Source of the DNA: a virus
DNA length: 39,781 bases
Strand: one strand, 5' to 3'
Virus record (IMG/VR): IMGVR_UViG_3300045110_000031
Coordinates: 1 to 39,781 of that record
The notes below the pieces were generated by a model. The model was not told the DNA's origin. It made no database searches and saw nothing but the letters and a program-made list of their open reading frames with translations. Positions 10,266 to 39,781 of this stretch are shown here, one piece after another. Made by a program: the position numbers and the translations under genes. The first letter of the stretch is position 1; the number at the start of each line of letters is the position of its first letter.

Positions 10266-10495
10266 GGGTGGGTCTGGTAGTAGGGCTGCTGCTGCGTGCG
10301 CTGCTGGGCCAGCGACTGGGCCTGCGCCTCGCAATCCTCCAGGGCTCCCGACGAGCAGAGGTAGCCCCCGGCTGCGTCACGGCAGATGTACGTCTGGCGG
10401 GCGAAGAAGGCCCCCTCGGCCGGCGTCCCTACGTTGGGATTAGGGACGATTTCAAGCGTTGGAGTGATCACCCAGCCTGGAGGCAAAGTTGCCAT
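10262..10495 (-). CDS. Small hypothetical protein in the head-tail region
   Basis: A 77-aa protein starting MATLPPGWVITPTLEIVPNP, with two Cys near residues 38-54 and a Gln-rich tail ending QQQPYYQTHP. Its immediate leader is a copy of the dispersed motif (TAATCACTGGTGACGAAATG), which leaves only GGTGA as a ribosome site. Translationally coupled to the stabilisation gene (ATGA). No family recognised. Confidence 0.55.
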   Translation of the reverse strand: MATLPPGWVITPTLEIVPNPNVGTPAEGAFFARQTYICRDAAGGYLCSSGALEDCEAQAQSLAQQRTQQQPYYQTHP

Positions 10496-10509
10496 TTCGT
10501 CACCAGTGA

Positions 10510-11292
10510 TTAGTTCTGGCGCATCCCGTACAGGGACGCCTCGGGCAGGTTGCCGATGCCGATGTACGGGTAGTCGTGGCGACCGCTCGCCATGTTCAGG
10601 ATGTTGGCTCCCTTCTCGGCACCGATGCGCGAGTCGAAGGCCAGCAGGAAGTCGCGCACCGCTGCGCTGCTATCGAAGCCCCGGGCTTCCAGCCACTTCA
10701 GCCGCGTCAGCAGCGTCATCAGCACACCGTCAAGCTGGAAGGTGTCGCCGGCCTTGGTGGCGATGTTCTTGTAGAGGTCGGGGTTGTCCGCGTCCTGCAC
10801 CAGGGCCTGGGACAGGTACATGAACTTGAAGTCCTGCCCGGGTGGAGCCGGGGGGTTCAGGAACCACAACTGGCGCTGCCTGATCTGCCACGTCAGCGTG
10901 AAGTTGGCGCTGATCGGGAAGACCCGGTAGGTCATCCAGCCCTGGGGGCTGACCGGGCCGACCGCAGGGAAACGCATGGCAGCGTTCCACTGGGTCTGGT
11001 CGATGAACCGGTAGAAGTCCTCGGGCATCGGGAAGCCCACCTCGTTCGACTCACCCGGCACCGGGGGGATCAGGGTGTTGACGTTGATGGTCGCTTCCTT
11101 CGTCAGTTGCGACCACTCGTAGGCATTCAGCATCTCCAGGCTGGAGAGGTTCGCCACCGTCCGCATCAGCACGAGGTTAGGGTCTGCCGACCCGACCGGG
11201 TCGGTCGGCACCGGCAGGTTCAGCATGGCGCACACCTGCTGCAGCAGCACTTGGAAGGTGCTGAAGTTGGTGATGCTGTAGGTCGTCGCCAT
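10510..11292 (-). CDS. Putative head-tail adaptor (P22 gp4-like)
   Basis: A 260-aa protein starting MATTYSITNFSTFQVLLQQV. The N-terminal helical region (LSSLEMLNAYEWSQLTKEAT) followed by a beta segment with aromatic residues and a long C-terminal helix resembles the gp4-type tail accessory proteins that close the portal of short-tailed phages. It lies directly upstream of the stabilisation module. The ribosome site is weak (TGGGGAA). Function inferred from pattern and position. Confidence 0.6.
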   Translation of the reverse strand: MATTYSITNFSTFQVLLQQVCAMLNLPVPTDPVGSADPNLVLMRTVANLSSLEMLNAYEWSQLTKEATINVNTLIPPVPGESNEVGFPMPEDFYRFIDQTQWNAAMRFPAVGPVSPQGWMTYRVFPISANFTLTWQIRQRQLWFLNPPAPPGQDFKFMYLSQALVQDADNPDLYKNIATKAGDTFQLDGVLMTLLTRLKWLEARGFDSSAAVRDFLLAFDSRIGAEKGANILNMASGRHDYPYIGIGNLPEASLYGMRQN

Positions 11293-22700: not shown

Positions 22701-22957
22701 CACGCACTCTCCCACAGGCGCTCGCCGATCTGCACACCGTACTCGTAGGGCTCGGCCGTGAGCGCCAGCAGCAGGCCGCTGGTGATCTCGACCCGCTTGG
22801 GCATGGGCAGCGACAGCGTCATGTCGTCGCGGCACTGCCTGACCACGAGGCCGGTGAAGCGCGAGCCCAGGCCATGCTCCAGGCCGCGTGCGAAGGCCGC
22901 AGCCTGATCCCAGGGTTGCCAGGGCAGCCTTGGGCTTTCGCTACGGGTAGTTGTCAT
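22700..22957 (-). CDS. Small hypothetical protein
   Basis: An 85-aa protein starting MTTTRSESPRLPWQPWDQAA. Codons 2-8 are made from a copy of the dispersed motif (TTTCGCTACGGGTAGTTG on the opposite strand). The start is coupled to the methyltransferase stop (ATGA), and its own stop to the 25-aa gene (TGATG). Predicted mixed alpha/beta; no recognised domain. Confidence 0.55.
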   Translation of the reverse strand: MTTTRSESPRLPWQPWDQAAAFARGLEHGLGSRFTGLVVRQCRDDMTLSLPMPKRVEITSGLLLALTAEPYEYGVQIGERLWESA

Positions 22958-23673
22958 GCCATCCCCAGCCACATGCTCGGGTTGGCGGTGTCCGCTGCCA
23001 GCATCTCGCACACCCTGGCACCCAGGACCTCCTCGGGCAACCTGTACCACTGCAGGCCGTAGTCGAGGCGCACCAGCCCTGCCTGCTGTAGCTCCAGGCT
23101 CTTCAGCGTCTCGTACTGCTGCACCTCGGCGAAGGCCGGCGAGCCATCCACCACGTCCAGCACGAGGAGCGTCCCTCCTGGCCGCAGGCAGGCACGAGCC
23201 ACGTCGAGCATGTGCGGCACGTCGGTGCAGTGGTGCAGCGAGTAGCCCAGCACGGCCACGTCGAAGGCCGCCCAGTCTGGGATGTAGCTCAGGGTGCCAG
23301 CGTCGCGCATGTCGGCCTGCACACGGTCACCAGGGCACAGGCAGCGGTCTAGCTGGGCCCTGGAGGCGTTGACCAGGGTGAACCGAAGGTCATGCCTCAC
23401 CTGATGCCAGTACCGCTCCATGCCGCCGATGCCGCAGCCGAGGCTGATGACCCTGGCGTCCTGGGGAGCGTTTACACGGCCCAGCACGCTGATGCTGTGC
23501 ATACGCTCGTCGGGGTAGAGCATGAACAACTGGTAGACCGTCTGGCCCCTGGCCGTCAGCCAGTCGGTCACGTCGCCGACCAGCTTGTCGTCGCTGTACA
23601 GCGGGTGACCTCGCGGCGGCCAATTCCCAGTGACGAAATGCGACCGCGACAGGTCTGTGCCGTTGGGCTCCAT
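22954..23673 (-). CDS. Class I SAM-dependent methyltransferase
   Basis: A 239-aa protein with the start chosen at MEPNGTDLSR because GGAGG lies 6 bases upstream; a GTG at 23721 is the alternative. The SAM-binding motif I is ISLGCGIGG (about 76-84), the acidic residue D121 follows a later strand, and FDVAVLGYSLHHC (about 138-149) and ACLRPGGTLLVLDV match Methyltransf_11/UbiE-like enzymes. There is no DNA-methylase catalytic motif (DPPY/NPPY or PC), so a small-molecule, lipid or protein substrate is more likely. Unusual position between the terminase subunits. Confidence 0.78.
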   Translation of the reverse strand: MEPNGTDLSRSHFVTGNWPPRGHPLYSDDKLVGDVTDWLTARGQTVYQLFMLYPDERMHSISVLGRVNAPQDARVISLGCGIGGMERYWHQVRHDLRFTLVNASRAQLDRCLCPGDRVQADMRDAGTLSYIPDWAAFDVAVLGYSLHHCTDVPHMLDVARACLRPGGTLLVLDVVDGSPAFAEVQQYETLKSLELQQAGLVRLDYGLQWYRLPEEVLGARVCEMLAADTANPSMWLGMA

Positions 23674-23725
23674 CACCGTCCTCCAGCCCTTCAGCGAGGC
23701 TACATCGACCTGCTGGCCCACAGCC

Positions 23726-24097
23726 TCAGGCTTCCTTCTTGATGACCACCGTCAAGGGCCCACCGCCCTCGCCGACGACCTCCGACCGGTTCAGCTTGGG
23801 CGCTGCAAACTCGGCAAGCTGGGCCAGCCGCAGCAGGGCACCGTCTGGGTTGCGAGGCCGCCCTGGGATCGTCACCTTGCCTACCTTGCGATCCGGTGTG
23901 CCATCGGCGATCTCGGCCAGCCACAGGCTGACGTTGCCCGCGTTGTCGTCGAGCAGCCGCTGCACCGTCTCGCGGAACGTGGCCGTGACCTTGTTGGGCG
24001 TGCCCTTCTGACGCCCGCCGACACGCTGGCCCTTGATGCTCTGAGGCCGGGGCTTGCTAGAGCCCGCTGCTTTAGCAGGCAACTGAGGGCTTGACAT
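23726..24097 (-). CDS. Putative terminase small subunit
   Basis: A 123-aa basic protein starting MSSPQLPAKAAGSSKPRPQS. It contains GGRQKGTPNKVTATFRETVQ, a pattern typical of the DNA-binding N-terminus of phage small terminases, then a helical region (LLDDNAGNVSLWLAEIADG) and a C-terminal helical tail. First gene of the leftward operon; the large subunit lies four genes downstream. The ATG at 24097 has no good ribosome site. A TTG at 24130 preceded by GAGG would add 11 residues and is a real alternative. Confidence 0.65.
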   Translation of the reverse strand: MSSPQLPAKAAGSSKPRPQSIKGQRVGGRQKGTPNKVTATFRETVQRLLDDNAGNVSLWLAEIADGTPDRKVGKVTIPGRPRNPDGALLRLAQLAEFAAPKLNRSEVVGEGGGPLTVVIKKEA

Positions 24098-24258
24098 GGT
24101 TGCGGGAATGTACCGCAGGAACACCGTCAAGACCAGAACACCTCAAGCCGGACCACCCCACCTCCCAGGCCGCCCCACCGGGCGTAGACCCCAGCCGGAA
24201 CACCGGAACACCGCAAAAGCGCCCATTTCCCTTACGCGCATACACAGGCCGCCAGCCT

Positions 24259-24277
24259 CGCGCGCGCGCGCGCGCGC
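24259..24277. repeat. Alternating (CG)9 tract, potential Z-DNA
   Basis: Nineteen bases of strict CG alternation, immediately next to an AT-rich easily melted segment, in the centre of the divergent control region. Such tracts favour left-handed DNA under negative supercoiling. Confidence 0.9.
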
Positions 24278-24435
24278 ATAGAACCTTTACCCATAAATCT
24301 CTCTACTCTCTATAGGAGAGAGGTGTTCCAGGTGTTCTACCGGGCGTAGAGGCCCCTCGGCCCAGGTGTCCGGCCACGGTGTCCCGCCCCCGCGAGGTGT
24401 TCCGGCACTATTTCACGCTTCCCTGGACAAACGGT

Positions 24436-24446
24436 AGCCTGGGGCT
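24436..24446 (+). repeat. Dispersed 11-mer AGCCTGGGGCT (representative copy)
   Basis: Exact copies on either strand at 13655, 17543, 18248, 18652, 24436, 30058, 32161 and 38120. The arms AGCC/GGCT form a short dyad. Near copies abut the -10 elements of several early promoters (28118 AGCCTCGGGCT, 30961 AGCCCGAGGCT, 32989 AGCCTGAGGCT). In genes it is read in different frames, so it is not just a protein motif. Confidence 0.7.
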
Positions 24447-24499
24447 TCAAATACCTCTAGAATCAAGCCTTGACAGCAACAAACAAGCGGAGCTTGAAG

Positions 24500-24871
24500 A
24501 TGACCAGCCAGACCAGCCAGATCGAAGCCTTCGTCGGCCCCCTGCCCCAGGCATCGGTCGCCAAGCGTGGCCGCCCGGCCAAGCACGACGACGCGGCCGC
24601 CCGCCAGCGTGCATGGCGTGCCGCCAACAAGGTCAAGACCTACCGCATCGACGGCAAGGCCGCCGCGACCATCGCCAAGCTCGCCGAGCAGTTCGACTGC
24701 GACGAGACGCATGTGGTCAACAACCTGATCCGCTTCGCCCTGGCGAACCGCACCTGGGCGACCCAGGGCATCGGCGGCTGGGACATCACCGACAAGCGTT
24801 TCGCTGCCGGCAAGCGCACCGCCCCGGCTGCCGACACCAGCGCCCTGGACGCCGAATTCCCCCTCGTTTAA
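24500..24871 (+). CDS. Putative ribbon-helix-helix DNA-binding regulator
   Basis: A 123-aa protein. ATG at 24500 chosen over TTG at 24470 because CGGAG lies 7 bases upstream. The N-terminus has a basic AKRGRPAKHDDAAARQRAWR stretch. Residues about 46-84 fit a ribbon-helix-helix fold: beta strand KTYRID, helix AATIAKLAEQF, helix ETHVVNNLIRFALAN. First gene of the rightward early operon beside the repeat-rich control region, so it may bind the GGTGTTCC repeats (inference). Its stop codon TAA is part of a GTTTAAAC site. Confidence 0.65.
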   Translation: MTSQTSQIEAFVGPLPQASVAKRGRPAKHDDAAARQRAWRAANKVKTYRIDGKAAATIAKLAEQFDCDETHVVNNLIRFALANRTWATQGIGGWDITDKRFAAGKRTAPAADTSALDAEFPLV

Positions 24872-24890
24872 ACCCCAAGGACCAACCGCC

Positions 24891-25199
24891 ATGAACCCCA
24901 GCCAAGCCCGAGCAGCCCGACTCTTCACCAACCACGTCCAGCGCAATCTGGACCCCCATCCCGAGCGCGGCGATGCCGCCTTCTTCGTCGCCGAGACGAC
25001 CACCTACGGCACCCTCTGGATCACCGGCCGCACCGAGATGACCGGCCTGGGCGAGGCCAACCTGCTCCGAGCGGTGTCGGCCGAGTATTGGCTGGTCGCT
25101 GTCGGCAAGCGGGGCGGCCTGGAGGTCAGGATGGCCCCCAGGTCCTACAAGCAGTTCAACGGCAAGCGTGCCTTCGGCATGACCTTCAACCTCTCCTGA
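24891..25199 (+). CDS. Early hypothetical protein
   Basis: A 102-aa protein starting MNPSQARAARLFTNHVQRNL, mixed alpha/beta, ending MTFNLS, no membrane segment. AAGGA ribosome site. Second gene of the early operon, between GTTTAAAC and the GGAGCTACACC leader of the next gene. Not recognised. Confidence 0.6.
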   Translation: MNPSQARAARLFTNHVQRNLDPHPERGDAAFFVAETTTYGTLWITGRTEMTGLGEANLLRAVSAEYWLVAVGKRGGLEVRMAPRSYKQFNGKRAFGMTFNLS

Positions 25200-25228
25200 T
25201 CACCCCACCACCACCCTGGAGCTACACC

Positions 25229-25630
25229 ATGAAATTCGCCTTCAAATACACCCGCCGCGACATCCCCCGCACCATCGTCCTAGAGGCCGACAACGTGGCC
25301 GACGCCACGTCCCTGGGCTACATCAGGGCCGGCAGCGTCATCGACAACGTCCGCTGCGAGCCTGCCACCTCCTACGAGGCCCTGGAGGCCCTCGTGGCCC
25401 AGGCCAAGGACGCCCACCCCGACCTCGGCCTGTCCTTCGGCTACATCGGCAACCTTGAGCGTTGGGGCGACGACCGCGACTGGCGCATCTTCACCAACCG
25501 CATGCTGGGCGGCCGGTCCTACTCCCTGCCCCTGGGCTCGACCGACAACCTCGACAGGGCCCTGGAGGCCATGCCCGAGGTGCTGCCCCGCTTCCTGGCC
25601 GTGGCCGCCAAGGCCGACCGTCGCCACTGA
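25229..25630 (+). CDS. Early hypothetical protein
   Basis: A 133-aa protein starting MKFAFKYTRRDIPRTIVLEA. The start is fixed by the CCTGGAGCTACACC leader; the longer in-frame extension overlaps the previous gene. Mixed alpha/beta, acidic, no cysteine cluster. Its leader is nearly identical to that of the next gene, including a CCACCACCACC stretch. Confidence 0.6.
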   Translation: MKFAFKYTRRDIPRTIVLEADNVADATSLGYIRAGSVIDNVRCEPATSYEALEALVAQAKDAHPDLGLSFGYIGNLERWGDDRDWRIFTNRMLGGRSYSLPLGSTDNLDRALEAMPEVLPRFLAVAAKADRRH

Positions 25631-32254: not shown

Positions 32255-32938
32255 ATGGGTGGAGAAGTCATCAAGTTCGATCCGGCCAAGTTCGCGGCCA
32301 GCGTCGTCACCAACATGAAGCGTGCGGGTTCCACCCGCGTCGGCTTCCTGAAGATGGGCAAGGACGGCCAGTGGTCCTACGGGACCGACGAGACAGAGGT
32401 CACCGAGGAAGACCACGTCTTCATCGACCCCAACGGGTTCGTCCACGGGTGGCAGTCCTGGGCCGACACCGACCTCGCGGGTGTGTCGTCCGAGTTGCTG
32501 GGCGATGTCATCGCCGGCATGGATCAGCCGCTGCCGGATCGCCCAGCCAAGACCCCCGAGAACGGCCGTCCCTGGTCCGAGGTGCGTGGCATGAGCGTGC
32601 TGCTGGCGGGCGAGAAGCTCGTCTACAGCACCACCAGCGTGGGCGGCATCAACGCCTTCGCCGGTCTGGCCGAGGAGTACCTCGCCCAGTTCCACGCCGA
32701 CCCCAGCCGGATGATTGCCGAAGTCTCGCTCTCGTGCGACAGCTACAAGCACAAGAACAAGACCTACGGGCGCATCTACACCCCGGTCTTCACCGTGGTC
32801 GAGTGGCACGCCACCCTGCCGGCCGCTGCGACGGTCAAGGCCGCCCCCGAGCCCGAGCCCGAGCCGAAGAAGCGTGTCGGCGTGGCGAAGAAAATCCCGA
32901 CCGCCAAGAAGGCCGGCAAGGCACGCCGCGCAGCGTAG
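32255..32938 (+). CDS. Putative ssDNA-binding replication protein (DUF2815 position)
   Basis: A 227-aa protein starting MGGEVIKFDPAKFAASVVTN. Beta-rich middle (about 30-190) and a Lys/Arg/Ala-rich tail after an EPEPEPKK linker. It occupies the place of the DUF2815 ssDNA-binding protein between the DUF2800 nuclease and the polymerase in comparable cassettes. I do not see a clear DUF2815 signature, so the call is by position. AGGAGA ribosome site; terminator follows. Confidence 0.5.
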   Translation: MGGEVIKFDPAKFAASVVTNMKRAGSTRVGFLKMGKDGQWSYGTDETEVTEEDHVFIDPNGFVHGWQSWADTDLAGVSSELLGDVIAGMDQPLPDRPAKTPENGRPWSEVRGMSVLLAGEKLVYSTTSVGGINAFAGLAEEYLAQFHADPSRMIAEVSLSCDSYKHKNKTYGRIYTPVFTVVEWHATLPAAATVKAAPEPEPEPKKRVGVAKKIPTAKKAGKARRAA

Positions 32939-35198: not shown

Positions 35199-37460
35199 AT
35201 GGACTCTAGCACAGAGCAATTCAATTTTTTGCTCACGTTGCGCGACGGCATCCCCAAGGGGTCCCACTTCCAAGTCGCGCAGCACAGCCCGCGAGGCACC
35301 TTCCCCGCCGAGACGTGGCACGAGCAGTACCTCGACGGCCCCTGGTACTTCTCGACCGGGGCGAGCAACCACCCCAGGCTGCGCAAGCACGAGAATATGG
35401 TGGCGGTGCGGGCCATCGTGCTGGACGATGTCGGCACCAAGGTCGAGGCCGACAGGATTCTGGCCGCCCCCACCTGGGTGCTGGAGACGAGCCCCGGCAA
35501 CTTCCAGTGGGGCTTCATGCTGAAGACCTGGGAGCCGGACATCGAGAAGGCCGACGATCTCTTCGCCGGCTTGATCGACGCGGGGCTTCAAGACCCAGGT
35601 GTCAACCGGGCCTGTCGCATCTTCCGCATACCCGACAGCGTCAACCAGAAGCCGGGCAAGGACAACTTCAGGGCGCACCTCCACTCGTTCGACAAGGACC
35701 TCGTCTACACGCTGAACACCCTGGTCAAGGCGCTGAAGATCGTGCCCGGCACGGCCGCCCAGCGCATCAAGGACACGGGCGAGCGGCCGAAGGCGGGGGT
35801 TGAAGACCCGCTCTTCAAGTGGCTGGACGACCGGGGCATGGTGCGCCACCCCACCTCCGGTGGCTACTGGGAGATCGAGTGCCCCTTCGCCGACGAGCAT
35901 ACCGATGGCCGCGACGAGGCGAAGTTCCTGCCGATGGGCGACAGCCACACCGGCCGCTCGCAGTTTGAGTGTCACCACGGGCACGGCCTGGACAAGTCGG
36001 CCTACCGCAAGCGGTTCCTGGCCTGGGCCACCGAGCAGGGAGCCCCCGGCCTGGGGCCGGACCCGGAGAAGATACGCGAGATGTTCCAGGCGCTGCGCGG
36101 CACGGTGCCACCGGTCGAGCCCTTCCGCGACACCTCCCAGCCCTACACCTTCATCACCCTGGGTGAAGCCCTGGGCGGCATCGACCCCAAGGTGCTGCCG
36201 GACTACCGGGCCAAGGGCGAGGGCATCCCGGCCGCCATCCAGCGCAACACCGTCCGCAACGTCGAGGCCGCCCTGGTCTACCTGGGCGTGCAGCCCAGGC
36301 TGAACCTGATGAGCGGGGCCACGAGCTACATCCTGCCCGAGCGGATCGACGTGGCCCGGTTCGGGGTGATGACCCACCACGAGCGCGACCGGCTGGTCAC
36401 GGGTGCCGTGCGCGATGCCTTCGACCACGTCGGCATCACCAGCCGATCCCAGTTGGACGACAACCTTGCCGTCATCGCGGCCAGCCGGTACTGGCACCCG
36501 GCCAAGGACTGGATCGAGTCGAAGCCCTGGGACGGCCAGGATCGCTTGGAGCCCCTGCTGGCATCGGTCGCCTCGCCAACCCCCGACCTGCTCCAGACCT
36601 ATTTTCGTCGCTGGGCATTACAAACTGTCGAGGCAGCCTGCGGCTGGGAGGTCAGACGCGAGGAGCAGAAGAGCCTCTGCCTCGTCCTGGCCGGTGCCCA
36701 GGGCATCGGCAAGACCCGCTGGCTGAAGGCCCTCGCCCCAGGCTACGCTGTCGAGGGCAAGCACCTGAACCTCGACGGTGGGGCCGCCCGCGACAGCAAG
36801 CACGAGGCGCTGCAGGGCATGATCGTCGAGCTTGGCGAGCTTGACACCACGTTCAAGAAGACGGCCGTGGGCAGCCTCAAGGCGTTCCTGTCCCAGATGG
36901 TCGACGAGTACCGGCTGCCCTACTCGCGCGAGTGGCTGAAGCGGCCGCGCTGCACGTCCTTCTGTGCCAGCGTCAACGACGATGAATTCCTTCAGGATAC
37001 AACCGGCAATCGCCGCTTCGCCACCCTCTGGGTCGACTGCTGCAACCCGATGCACGGTGTCAACATGCAGCAGTTCTGGGCCCAGGTCCACTCGTGGTGG
37101 AAGGCCGGCGAGCAGTGGTGGCTGACCGATGCCGAGATGGTCCAGCAGATCGAACACAACGAGAAGTTCCAGTCGCCTGACGGCATCCTCGACATGCTCC
37201 AGGCCCAAGTCCAGAAGCGCGAGGCCGACCCCGAGCGGTACTGCATCGAGTGCAGCGTCCTGGCGTCCGACATCGGCCAGTTGTTGGGCCTGCGTGCCGA
37301 GGACAGGGCTGTCGGCCGGCGCGTTGCCGAGGCGATGCGGCAAGTCATCGGCCCGAAGCAGAACCTCCGCAAGCGTGGGGGCGGCCCGAAAGCCTGGACG
37401 TTCATGCTCGACAGCATCGAGTCGCGCGACTTCGGCGTGGTGCTGAAGCCGCTGGCATGA
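35199..37460 (+). CDS. VapE-type primase-helicase
   Basis: A 753-aa protein. The N-terminal half (about 1-210) resembles primase/polymerase-like RepB regions (IVLDDVGTK, GNFQWGFMLKTW, CRIFRIPDSVNQKPG). The C-terminal VapE/SF3-like ATPase has WDGQDRLEPLL before it, Walker A GAQGIGKT (499-506), VELGELDTTFKK, and CTSFCASVNDDEFLQDTTGN followed by the arginine-rich RRFATLWV. Likely primes and unwinds DNA for the phage polymerase; there is no separate DnaG or DnaB-type gene here. AGGAG ribosome site. Confidence 0.85.
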   Translation: MDSSTEQFNFLLTLRDGIPKGSHFQVAQHSPRGTFPAETWHEQYLDGPWYFSTGASNHPRLRKHENMVAVRAIVLDDVGTKVEADRILAAPTWVLETSPGNFQWGFMLKTWEPDIEKADDLFAGLIDAGLQDPGVNRACRIFRIPDSVNQKPGKDNFRAHLHSFDKDLVYTLNTLVKALKIVPGTAAQRIKDTGERPKAGVEDPLFKWLDDRGMVRHPTSGGYWEIECPFADEHTDGRDEAKFLPMGDSHTGRSQFECHHGHGLDKSAYRKRFLAWATEQGAPGLGPDPEKIREMFQALRGTVPPVEPFRDTSQPYTFITLGEALGGIDPKVLPDYRAKGEGIPAAIQRNTVRNVEAALVYLGVQPRLNLMSGATSYILPERIDVARFGVMTHHERDRLVTGAVRDAFDHVGITSRSQLDDNLAVIAASRYWHPAKDWIESKPWDGQDRLEPLLASVASPTPDLLQTYFRRWALQTVEAACGWEVRREEQKSLCLVLAGAQGIGKTRWLKALAPGYAVEGKHLNLDGGAARDSKHEALQGMIVELGELDTTFKKTAVGSLKAFLSQMVDEYRLPYSREWLKRPRCTSFCASVNDDEFLQDTTGNRRFATLWVDCCNPMHGVNMQQFWAQVHSWWKAGEQWWLTDAEMVQQIEHNEKFQSPDGILDMLQAQVQKREADPERYCIECSVLASDIGQLLGLRAEDRAVGRRVAEAMRQVIGPKQNLRKRGGGPKAWTFMLDSIESRDFGVVLKPLA

Positions 37461-37768: not shown

Positions 37769-39172
37769 ATGCAGTACAACCCGCTCCCGTTCCAGCAGAA
37801 GGCCATCTCCCTCGTTTGCGACAAGCCGGGCTCTGCCCTGCTGCTCGACCCGGGCATGGGCAAGACGGCCGTCACCCTGGCCGCCCACTGCGTGCTGCAG
37901 TTCCACGACCTGATCCAGGCGACCCTGGTCATCGTGCCCCTGCGGCCGATGTACCTGACGTGGCCGGCAGAGGTCGCCAAGTGGGACCAGTTCAAGCACC
38001 TCAAGGTGTCCATCATCCACGGGTCGGCCGCCCAGCGGCTGGCCGCCATCGAGAAGAAGGCCGACATCTACCTCATCAACCCCGAGAACGTGGCGTGGCT
38101 CGTCGCCATGCTGAACGGTAGCCTGGGGCTCTTCGGCAACATCCCTGGCCTGCTGGCGGTCGACGAGTCGACCCGCTTCAAGAACGGCCAGAGCGTCCGC
38201 TTCAAGGCCCTGAAGACCATCCTCCCGCTCTTCCCCCGCCGCACGATCCTGACCGGCACCGTCGCGCCCCAGGGCATCGAGGACCTCTTCGCCCAGATGC
38301 AGATCGTGGACGACGGCAAGCGCCTGGGCAAGTTCATCACCCACTTTCGTCGCCTCTTCATGTACTCGACCCCGCTGCGGATCGGTGGCGGCCGCACCAT
38401 CGACGAGTGGCATGTCAGGCCGGGCGCTGCCCAGATGATCACGGCCGCCATCAAGGACGTGGCCCTCAGGCTCCAGGCCGAGGACTACCTGACGATGCCG
38501 GCCATCACCTACAACGTGATCCCGGTCGAGCTTCCCAAGGCCGTGCGCTCGGTCTACAAGTCCCTGGCCGACGACCTCGTCGCCCAGGTCGGCGACCAGA
38601 AGCTCACGGCCGTGACGGCAGCCGCCGCGACGATGAAGCTCCGCCAGATCACCAATGGCTGGGCCTACAACGAGACTGGCTCGGTCCACGTCCACGACGC
38701 CAAGCTCGACGCCCTGGCCGACCTCGTCGAGGAGCAGTCGGGCACGCCCCTGCTGGTGGCCGTCGCCTTCCTGCACGAGGTGCCGGCGATCCGCGAGAAG
38801 CTCGCCAGCGTCCTGCCGAAGGGCACCAACGTGCCGTACCTGGGCGGGGGCGTCAGCCGCACCCAGGCCGACGCCACGGTCGAAGCCTGGAACAAGGGCG
38901 AGGTCCCGGTCCTGCTGGTCCACCCGACCTCGGTGGCCCACGGCCTGAACCTCCAGGCGGGCGGGCACGCTGTCTGCTGGTTCGGCCTGACGTGGAACCT
39001 TGAGGAGCATATCCAGACCAACGCCCGGGTGTACCGCCAGGGTCAAACGAAGCCTGTGGTGATACACTACCTGACGGCAAAGGACACCGTTGACGAGGAC
39101 ATCGCCAAGGCGCTCGTCGACAAGTCCGATCTGCAGTCAGCCATCCTCAACCGTCTCAAGGGATCGAAATGA
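37769..39172 (+). CDS. SNF2/DEAD-type helicase
   Basis: A 467-aa superfamily 2 ATPase. Q-like start PLPFQQKA, Walker A LDPGMGKT (Gly29-Thr33), motif II VDEST (Asp132, Glu133), motif III LTGT, and motif VI NARVYRQGQT (Arg420, Arg423). This is the typical phage SNF2-like helicase that follows VRR-NUC. Probably remodels DNA or removes proteins during replication or recombination. Ends by overlapping the next start as ATGA. Confidence 0.9.
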   Translation: MQYNPLPFQQKAISLVCDKPGSALLLDPGMGKTAVTLAAHCVLQFHDLIQATLVIVPLRPMYLTWPAEVAKWDQFKHLKVSIIHGSAAQRLAAIEKKADIYLINPENVAWLVAMLNGSLGLFGNIPGLLAVDESTRFKNGQSVRFKALKTILPLFPRRTILTGTVAPQGIEDLFAQMQIVDDGKRLGKFITHFRRLFMYSTPLRIGGGRTIDEWHVRPGAAQMITAAIKDVALRLQAEDYLTMPAITYNVIPVELPKAVRSVYKSLADDLVAQVGDQKLTAVTAAAATMKLRQITNGWAYNETGSVHVHDAKLDALADLVEEQSGTPLLVAVAFLHEVPAIREKLASVLPKGTNVPYLGGGVSRTQADATVEAWNKGEVPVLLVHPTSVAHGLNLQAGGHAVCWFGLTWNLEEHIQTNARVYRQGQTKPVVIHYLTAKDTVDEDIAKALVDKSDLQSAILNRLKGSK

Positions 39173-39485: not shown

Positions 39486-39701
39486 GTGCCCGGTATCCGC
39501 GACCCCTACACCCTGGTCTTCGACCAGCAAGAACTTGAAGTCGTCCTCCAGGGCCTGGGCAAGCTCCCGGCCGAGCGGAGCTACAACCTCCTGACCCGCC
39601 TGGGCAACGAGATCGCCCAGGAGAACCAGCGCCGGCAGGCACCCCCGGCCGATTCCCAGGGCGTCGGCAGCGCCGATCTGGTCGGCGTCCCGGTCCAGTA
39701 A
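39486..39701 (+). CDS. Small hypothetical protein
   Basis: A 71-aa protein with a GTG start 3 bases after the previous stop: MPGIRDPYTLVFDQQELEVV, helical, ending VGVPVQ. It fills the space between the HTH gene and the PEP-CTERM cassette without gaps. Its 3' end is repeated at 1-47. Unrecognised; similar short helical proteins often end phage early operons. Confidence 0.6.
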   Translation: MPGIRDPYTLVFDQQELEVVLQGLGKLPAERSYNLLTRLGNEIAQENQRRQAPPADSQGVGSADLVGVPVQ

Positions 39702-39781
39702 TTCCCCCGTCAGTCGTTTAAACCTCAGGAGTAGCGCATGAAGAAAGTTCTCACCTCCCTCGCCCTGGCCCTCTGCGCCAG
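39655..39781. repeat. Terminal direct repeat of the contig (copy 2)
   Basis: Identical to 1-127; see that entry. Covers the stop of the 71-aa gene and the start of the first PEP-CTERM gene. Confidence 0.95.
39738..39781 (+). CDS. 5' fragment of PEP-CTERM protein 1
   Basis: Repeats the start of the gene at 84-734 (signal peptide residues MKKVLTSLALALCA). Partial only because the circular contig is cut here. Confidence 0.9.
   Translation, partial: MKKVLTSLALALCA

Follow-up and report, generated by a model that had tools for sequence, protein, structure and literature searches.

A divergent control region carrying two inverted repeat arrays

The stretch of DNA analysed here (hereafter the window) corresponds to a viral record 39,781 bases long and has an overall GC content of 66.6%. 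Its two ends (positions 1-127 and 39655-39781) are identical over 127 bp, a redundancy of the kind that assembly of a circular contig produces, so that the record closes into a circle of about 39.65 kb. A related contig (G038) shows the same feature.

A sequence-only reading of this DNA had described operons that start in both directions from one control region, and the layout of open reading frames bears this out. The leftward, late operon begins with a gene for a putative small terminase (TerS; 23726-24097, minus strand), assigned from its position only, and contains the terminase, portal and capsid genes. Its first product has no Pfam or NCBIfam match, is related only to phrog_11043 (‘unknown’), and exhibits no similarity to the small terminase of Stenotrophomonas phage BUCT555. 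The rightward, early operon begins with a gene for a small regulator-like protein (24500-24871, plus strand; phrog_28252, unknown function), followed by genes for a DUF2800 protein, a family A DNA polymerase (PolA), a VapE-type protein and an SNF2-type helicase. Inspection by eye suggested a ribbon-helix-helix fold for the regulator, and this assignment is left open because the AlphaFold2 model has a mean pLDDT of only 54. A scan of the region for sigma-70 promoters found none, and we therefore infer the divergent promoters from the layout. Rfam searches of the region, and a DNA search with positions 22900-25300 against cultured phages, also returned no match.

The region between the operons carries nine good copies of a 7-nucleotide repeat (seven of GGTGTTC and two of GGTGTCC) and one weak copy, distributed between two arrays. 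In the left array (24118-24212, minus strand), GGTGTTC occurs at 24119, 24136, 24198 and 24206, accompanied by the degenerate GGTGGTCC at 24150. In the right array (24322-24403, plus strand), GGTGTTC occurs at 24322, 24331 and 24396, and GGTGTCC at 24365 and 24378. Left and right copies lie on opposite strands, and no copy is oriented the wrong way. Between the arrays are a 19-nucleotide tract of alternating C and G (24259-24277), read from the sequence, and an AT-rich segment (24278-24320) that is a candidate unwinding region, in which the lowest 50-mer has 38% GC as compared with 66.6% for the genome. Exact positions thus uphold most of what had been described by eye, including the nine repeats, their opposed arrangement, the (CG)9 tract, the AT-rich segment and a 12-bp direct repeat. 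The exception is a hairpin in the AT-rich segment, which is present but weak; because 20 of 200 shuffled sequences fold equally well, it was dropped as a structural element.

Both the clustering and the inverted layout of the repeats are far above chance. The exact GGTGTTC sequence occurs 23 times in the window, and seven of these occurrences fall within 284 bp; when 23 points were placed at random, at least seven fell within 402 bp in none of 20,000 trials. A two-sided repeat score of 6.94 was obtained for the region, as compared with a maximum of 3.96 among 20 local shuffles. In an earlier version that used 60 shuffles, the 7-mer score was never reached and the 6-mer score was reached once. 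Several short repeat copies beside an AT-rich region, the arrangement by which iteron origins are recognized, are therefore present at 24118-24403.

Two further elements accompany the arrays. Exact copies of the 12-bp sequence ACCGGGCGTAGA are located at 24177-24188 and 24339-24350 (both plus strand), with the second copy directly following the iteron at 24331, where GGTGTTCT abuts ACCGGGCGTAGA. Apart from the iterons, the palindrome AGCCTGGGGCT (24435-24445, plus strand) occupies a promoter-proximal position that would suit an operator. Its core, CCTG[AG]GG, is found in most of the regions compared, and in most relatives this palindrome or the variant AGCCTGAGGCT is located about 60-80 nucleotides ahead of the regulator gene.

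Relatives retain the plan and replace the repeat

Searches seeded with three proteins of the window (its regulator, its helicase and its putative small terminase) yielded related viral contigs. In these relatives the plan of the intergenic region is retained, and the repeat is replaced by about ten other sequences. The GGTGTTC repeat of the window recurs in L009 and L213, whereas other regions carry ATGTGTTC (L004), GAGGTGT (L180), GGTAGCGT (L002), TGTGGA (L003 and G034), CTCATGCC (L012 and L014), GGCTGTTC or GGCTGTCC (L007, L013, L017, L022, L188, L194 and L195), TRGTGC (L016, L025, L104 and L141), TAGTCCTG (L109), CTGTGTCG (L008), CCTGGGGC (L027) or GCCCGTCC (L189). Replacement can be local: the promoter-side flanks of L012 and L013 are almost identical and their repeats are different.

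The capsid protein of the window is 97-99% identical to those of four relatives (G001, G009, G011 and G006), whereas the helicases of the three of these contigs that hold one are only 54-60% identical to that of the window. Likewise, G011 and G024 share 96-98% identity in the SNF2-type protein and the product of the gene at 32255, and 75% in the helicase. A search of genome contigs with the VapE-type protein gave only distant partial matches (29-35% identity at six loci), and we therefore name no host.

The 12-bp element behaves differently from the iterons. Its form CCGGGCGTAG, in either orientation, is present in 16 of the 29 regions examined, and is absent from all four of L214, L217, L223 and L228, of which three come from contigs with another helicase type and L217 is a close relative of L214. 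On reading the sequences, a copy is found immediately 3ʹ of an iteron in many regions, and the iteron that precedes it differs: GGTGTTCT in the window, GGCTGTTCT in L007, CTGGTGCT in L141 and CTCATGCC in L012. The 12-mer is an invariant element adjoining variable iterons. It was rejected as an exclusive marker of this kind of origin, because it is also found in unrelated viral contigs, in many of them probably by chance. One such setting (L111, at about 10480-10620, and also L133) is a fragment of an unrelated phage that encodes a Terminase_6N protein, where the 12-mer adjoins an AT stretch and G-rich arrays in inverted orientation; VapE was not found in this 11.5-kb contig. In another unrelated phage (L119, 480-730) the 12-mer lies between TTTCTTG-type inverted repeats, and no PF05272 match occurs across its 43.9-kb contig.

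The arrays accompany a VapE-type helicase

In a further comparison, the right half of each region alone supplied a motif, which was then sought in the left half, in inverted and in direct orientation. The test set comprised 25 of the 29 regions, with L009, L014, L022 and L217 omitted as close copies. The left half was matched better by the inverted motif in 21 of the 25, in a test designed once inspection by eye had already revealed the arrays, although the motif draws on one half only, and in which several regions rank behind others with a similar repeat.

The outcome separates by helicase. Among regions tied to contigs that encode a VapE-type helicase, an inverted left array was recovered in 11 of 11, two of which (those of G021 and G029) are close; linkage was made through contig G024 for L012 (identical right half) and through G009 for L017 (identical region). 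Where no VapE gene is known in the contig, the array was inverted in 10 of 11 regions, the failure being L189. Five of these 11 (L007, L013, L016, L195 and L213), all fragments, were searched and gave no VapE match, and the other six (L003, L004, L109, L188, L189 and L194) lie on contigs of 4-8 kb that were not searched. By contrast, an inverted array was found in none of the three regions (L214, L223 and L228) whose contigs encode instead a PriCT_2/AAA_25 protein between PolA and the SNF2-type helicase, with the identical regions of G039 and G040 counted once. The PriCT_2/AAA_25 assignment rests on a Pfam scan for the G038 and G040 proteins, on identity to G040 for G039, and on judgement by eye for G043. 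These three cases keep the putative TerS (59-67% identical to that of the window) and the capsid protein (89-94%).

The two-sided score was also compared between contigs. With the iteron, it exceeded all 20 shuffles for the window and for G001, G003, G009, G020, G029, G021 and G006. The arrays of G011 and G012 are weak, and neither has an iteron score above the shuffles; G011 exceeded them only through the 12-mer, and G012 and the half region available in G024 did not exceed their 20 shuffles. Among contigs lacking VapE, G038 scored narrowly above its shuffles (3.28 versus 2.96) and G039, G040 and G043 did not. The arrays are thus associated with the VapE-type helicase, being present alongside it and absent where the other helicase type takes its place.

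A candidate iteron reader at the C-terminus of the helicase

The VapE-type protein (35199-37460, plus strand) is a primase-helicase of 753 amino acids with a PrimPol-like N-terminus and a D5/PriRep-like AAA+ core, and is our proposed initiator. It matches PF05272 (VapE-like; E = 4.5e-40), and the sole solved relative found by sequence is PriRep1 (7pds; profile E = 2.8e-30). In an AlphaFold2 model (mean pLDDT 75.6, pTM 0.41), the N-terminus resembles PrimPol structures (6zp9: Z 15.1, rmsd 3.1, 166 residues aligned; 3h20: Z 13.4, rmsd 2.9, 156 aligned). Over residues 329-736 the best structural match is 7pds_F, the SaPI PriRep1 with double-stranded DNA (Z 23.2, rmsd 11.4, 376 aligned), and this match therefore extends into the C-terminal part of the protein; Foldseek pairs the model with the same protein (E = 8e-18). 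The core is accordingly of the kind found in SaPI-type self-loading primase-helicases.

The C-terminal domain (residues 650-753; 37146-37457, plus strand) has an H-E-H-H-E order at residues 663-737 in the model and is predicted to be a winged helix. It is the most variable domain of the helicase: among nine origin-linked helicases it falls below the AAA+ core in conservation in all 36 pairs (mean 32% versus 62%). Two natural chimera pairs suggest that this variability tracks the repeat. The helicases of L160 and L175 are 94% identical over residues 1-280 and only 50% over 650-753, and their iterons differ. Conversely, those of L156 and L166 differ at about residues 281-480, are 90% identical in 650-753, and have the same iteron type; the differing stretch appears to reflect recombination confined to a central patch of the gene. 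In the two contigs concerned (G021 and G029), the other proteins compared are 97-100% identical and the helicase differs sharply only in that stretch. These pairs would point to the C-terminal domain as the region that changes together with the repeat. However, L166 and L175 have TRGTGCY in common and are just 54% identical in this domain, and a matrix test of iteron against C-terminal similarity was not significant in any of three tries. The first, in which the motif finder settled on the CG tract of the window, gave r = 0.18 and p = 0.15; the second gave r = 0.09 and p = 0.31, and the third r = 0.16 and p = 0.18. Partial tests on the core gave p = 0.14, 0.056 and 0.09, and a partial test with seven taxa gave p = 0.062. 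The case for the C-terminal domain therefore depends on the chimera pairs, the AlphaFold2 model and published work. The SaPI Rep protein is described as recognizing its iteron origin via its C-terminal domain, and the C-terminal domain of Cch2 as binding its repeats by itself (PMC7581432).

Taken with this analogy, the chimeras and the predicted fold make it likely that the C-terminal domain of the VapE-type protein reads the iterons. The strongest competing explanation also treats the region as an origin but assigns the iterons to a different reader, namely PolA (33044), the 32255 product, the helix-turn-helix protein encoded at 39169 or a host factor. PolA changes along with the helicase (30-33% identity to the window in the three contigs without VapE, where the 32255 product is 31-47% identical), so presence alone cannot single out VapE, nor is the C-terminal domain singled out by the covariation test. 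Nevertheless, the Pfam scan gave PolA the polymerase family only, both groups encode the 39169 protein, and the SaPI-type helicases are described as binding their own iterons by the corresponding domain (PMC7581432), which leaves a different reader improbable.

Regulator and putative small terminase do not account for the repeats

The sequence-only reading had offered three functions for the region, an origin, an operator array and a packaging site, of which the first is supported. The region at 24118-24403 is likely to be an origin: an AT-rich core lies between its repeats, which occur in step with a replication helicase. The regulator and the putative TerS are found both in the array-bearing and in the array-lacking group, and neither therefore explains the repeats, making both remaining functions unlikely.

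Were the arrays an operator, the 24500 regulator would bind them and control both divergent promoters. The position of the repeats between the operons, the place of the regulator as first early gene, and the many copies on either side would all suit a repressor. Yet the regulators of L002 and L003 are 88-90% identical to that of the window (88% by tblastn in G001), although the three repeats (GGTGTTC in the window, GGTAGCGT in L002 and TGTGGA in L003) are unrelated. Furthermore, G038, G039 and G040 retain the regulator at 65-71% identity with no such arrays (the match in G043 covers only the 25 residues that precede the edge of the contig). Conversely, inverted GCTGTGGAC arrays and VapE occur in G034 with no regulator match. 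The promoter-side palindrome with its CCTG[AG]GG core is a better operator candidate than the iterons, and regulator binding to the arrays is accordingly quite doubtful.

A pac or cos site bound by the 23726 protein is the least probable explanation and hardly credible: the repeats lie immediately upstream of the putative TerS gene, and pac is located in or near terS in many phages, but array-lacking relatives (G038, G039, G040 and G043) retain the protein, its identity to that of the window is similar with arrays (53-71%) and without them (59-67%), so that the arrays do not follow TerS, and the contigs of relatives open at differing places, which yields no fixed end here, though assembly alone could cause this.

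One check proposed earlier did not point to this region. Cumulative GC skew reaches its maximum near 18 kb and then declines to the end of the window. Both arms of the skew are co-oriented with transcription, and both transcription units are directed away from the proposed origin; skew from transcription and skew from replication are thus indistinguishable.

Comparison with known replication systems

An iteron origin served by a self-loading primase-helicase is a known kind of system. The SaPI Rep/PriRep1 and SCCmec Cch2 systems resemble that of the window in having an AAA+ helicase (7pds being the nearest solved fold), short iterons and, in some members, a fused primase; they also have a C-terminal origin-binding domain, the role proposed here for the predicted winged helix. 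However, the window is a full phage rather than an island. SaPI origins adjoin rep, whereas the proposed origin lies 11 kb from the helicase gene (24118-24403 versus 35199-37460), rather than directly downstream of it, and occupies a control region between divergent operons, next to the putative terS. Its arrays are inverted around CG and AT tracts, an invariant 12-mer stands beside the iterons, and the repeats vary among phages with nearly the same capsid protein. We therefore describe the system as working like the SaPI-type helicase family and do not file it as a SaPI replicon. Phage P4 alpha protein, which acts at ori and crr, combines primase, helicase and a C-terminal DNA-binding domain that binds short iterons, a plan resembling the one proposed for the window helicase.

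The PLE satellites offer a parallel for exchange. As described in PMC8263062, the initiator RepA has a DNA-binding domain that varies in concert with the iterons of the origin while the remainder is kept, only matched pairs replicate, an origin swap was shown experimentally, and a phage nuclease, Odn, is involved. RepA is a RepA_N initiator and unrelated to the window protein, PLE is a satellite rather than a phage, and that source describes two specificity groups among five PLEs, as compared with about ten repeat sequences here.

Among cultured phages, the nearest relative by capsid protein is BUCT555 (67% identity). It has the same divergent layout beside terS, but a different type of primase-helicase (PrimPol-PriCT_2-DUF5906), and its intergenic repeats are TTGATACACG-like and form no inverted arrays. 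The BUCT555 gene concerned (L351, 11687-13957) is annotated as an integrase, and its matches to Prim-Pol, PriCT_2 and DUF5906 identify a primase-helicase. Another contig, G044 (L279 and L340), encodes a capsid protein 91% identical to that of the window and has only a distant VapE-like match in an 875-codon frame; it perhaps represents a third type of helicase among these phages. Among the papers listed by literature searches on this arrangement, none dealt with the group. What sets the system apart is how far the origin lies from the helicase gene, the placement of inverted arrays between divergent operons, the constancy of the 12-mer and the variety of repeat sequences within one lineage.

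A proposed mechanism and its implications

We consider it probable, with good confidence, that 24118-24403 is an iteron replication origin bound by the phage’s own VapE-type primase-helicase. The two oppositely oriented iteron sets would flank the unwinding region, and the primase-helicase would bind them through its C-terminal winged helix, probably as two facing hexamers. The 12-mer adjoining the iterons may provide a second contact. The enzyme would then open the AT-rich middle, and prime and unwind in both directions around the circular 39.65-kb genome. We infer these steps of initiator binding, unwinding and bidirectional firing, and initiator binding might also influence the two divergent promoters.

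A more tentative proposal, which we regard as possible rather than probable, concerns how the origin evolves. It may be bipartite, with a fixed ACCGGGCGTAGA beside exchangeable iterons that are read by an exchangeable winged-helix end. Repeat and reader would be swapped together, giving many mutually foreign replicons within one lineage, several members of which share 97-99% of their capsid protein sequence. Such swapping might be driven by the need to evade co-infecting relatives, satellites or nucleases directed at the origin, such as Odn, that interfere with the phage.

If this is true, a single phage lineage would supply a large set of naturally occurring initiators paired with their iterons, with about ten repeats where PLEs offer two groups. 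The code by which the SaPI-type C-terminal domain recognizes its repeats could then be worked out, and the diversification of phage origins as an escape from replication interference would become testable.
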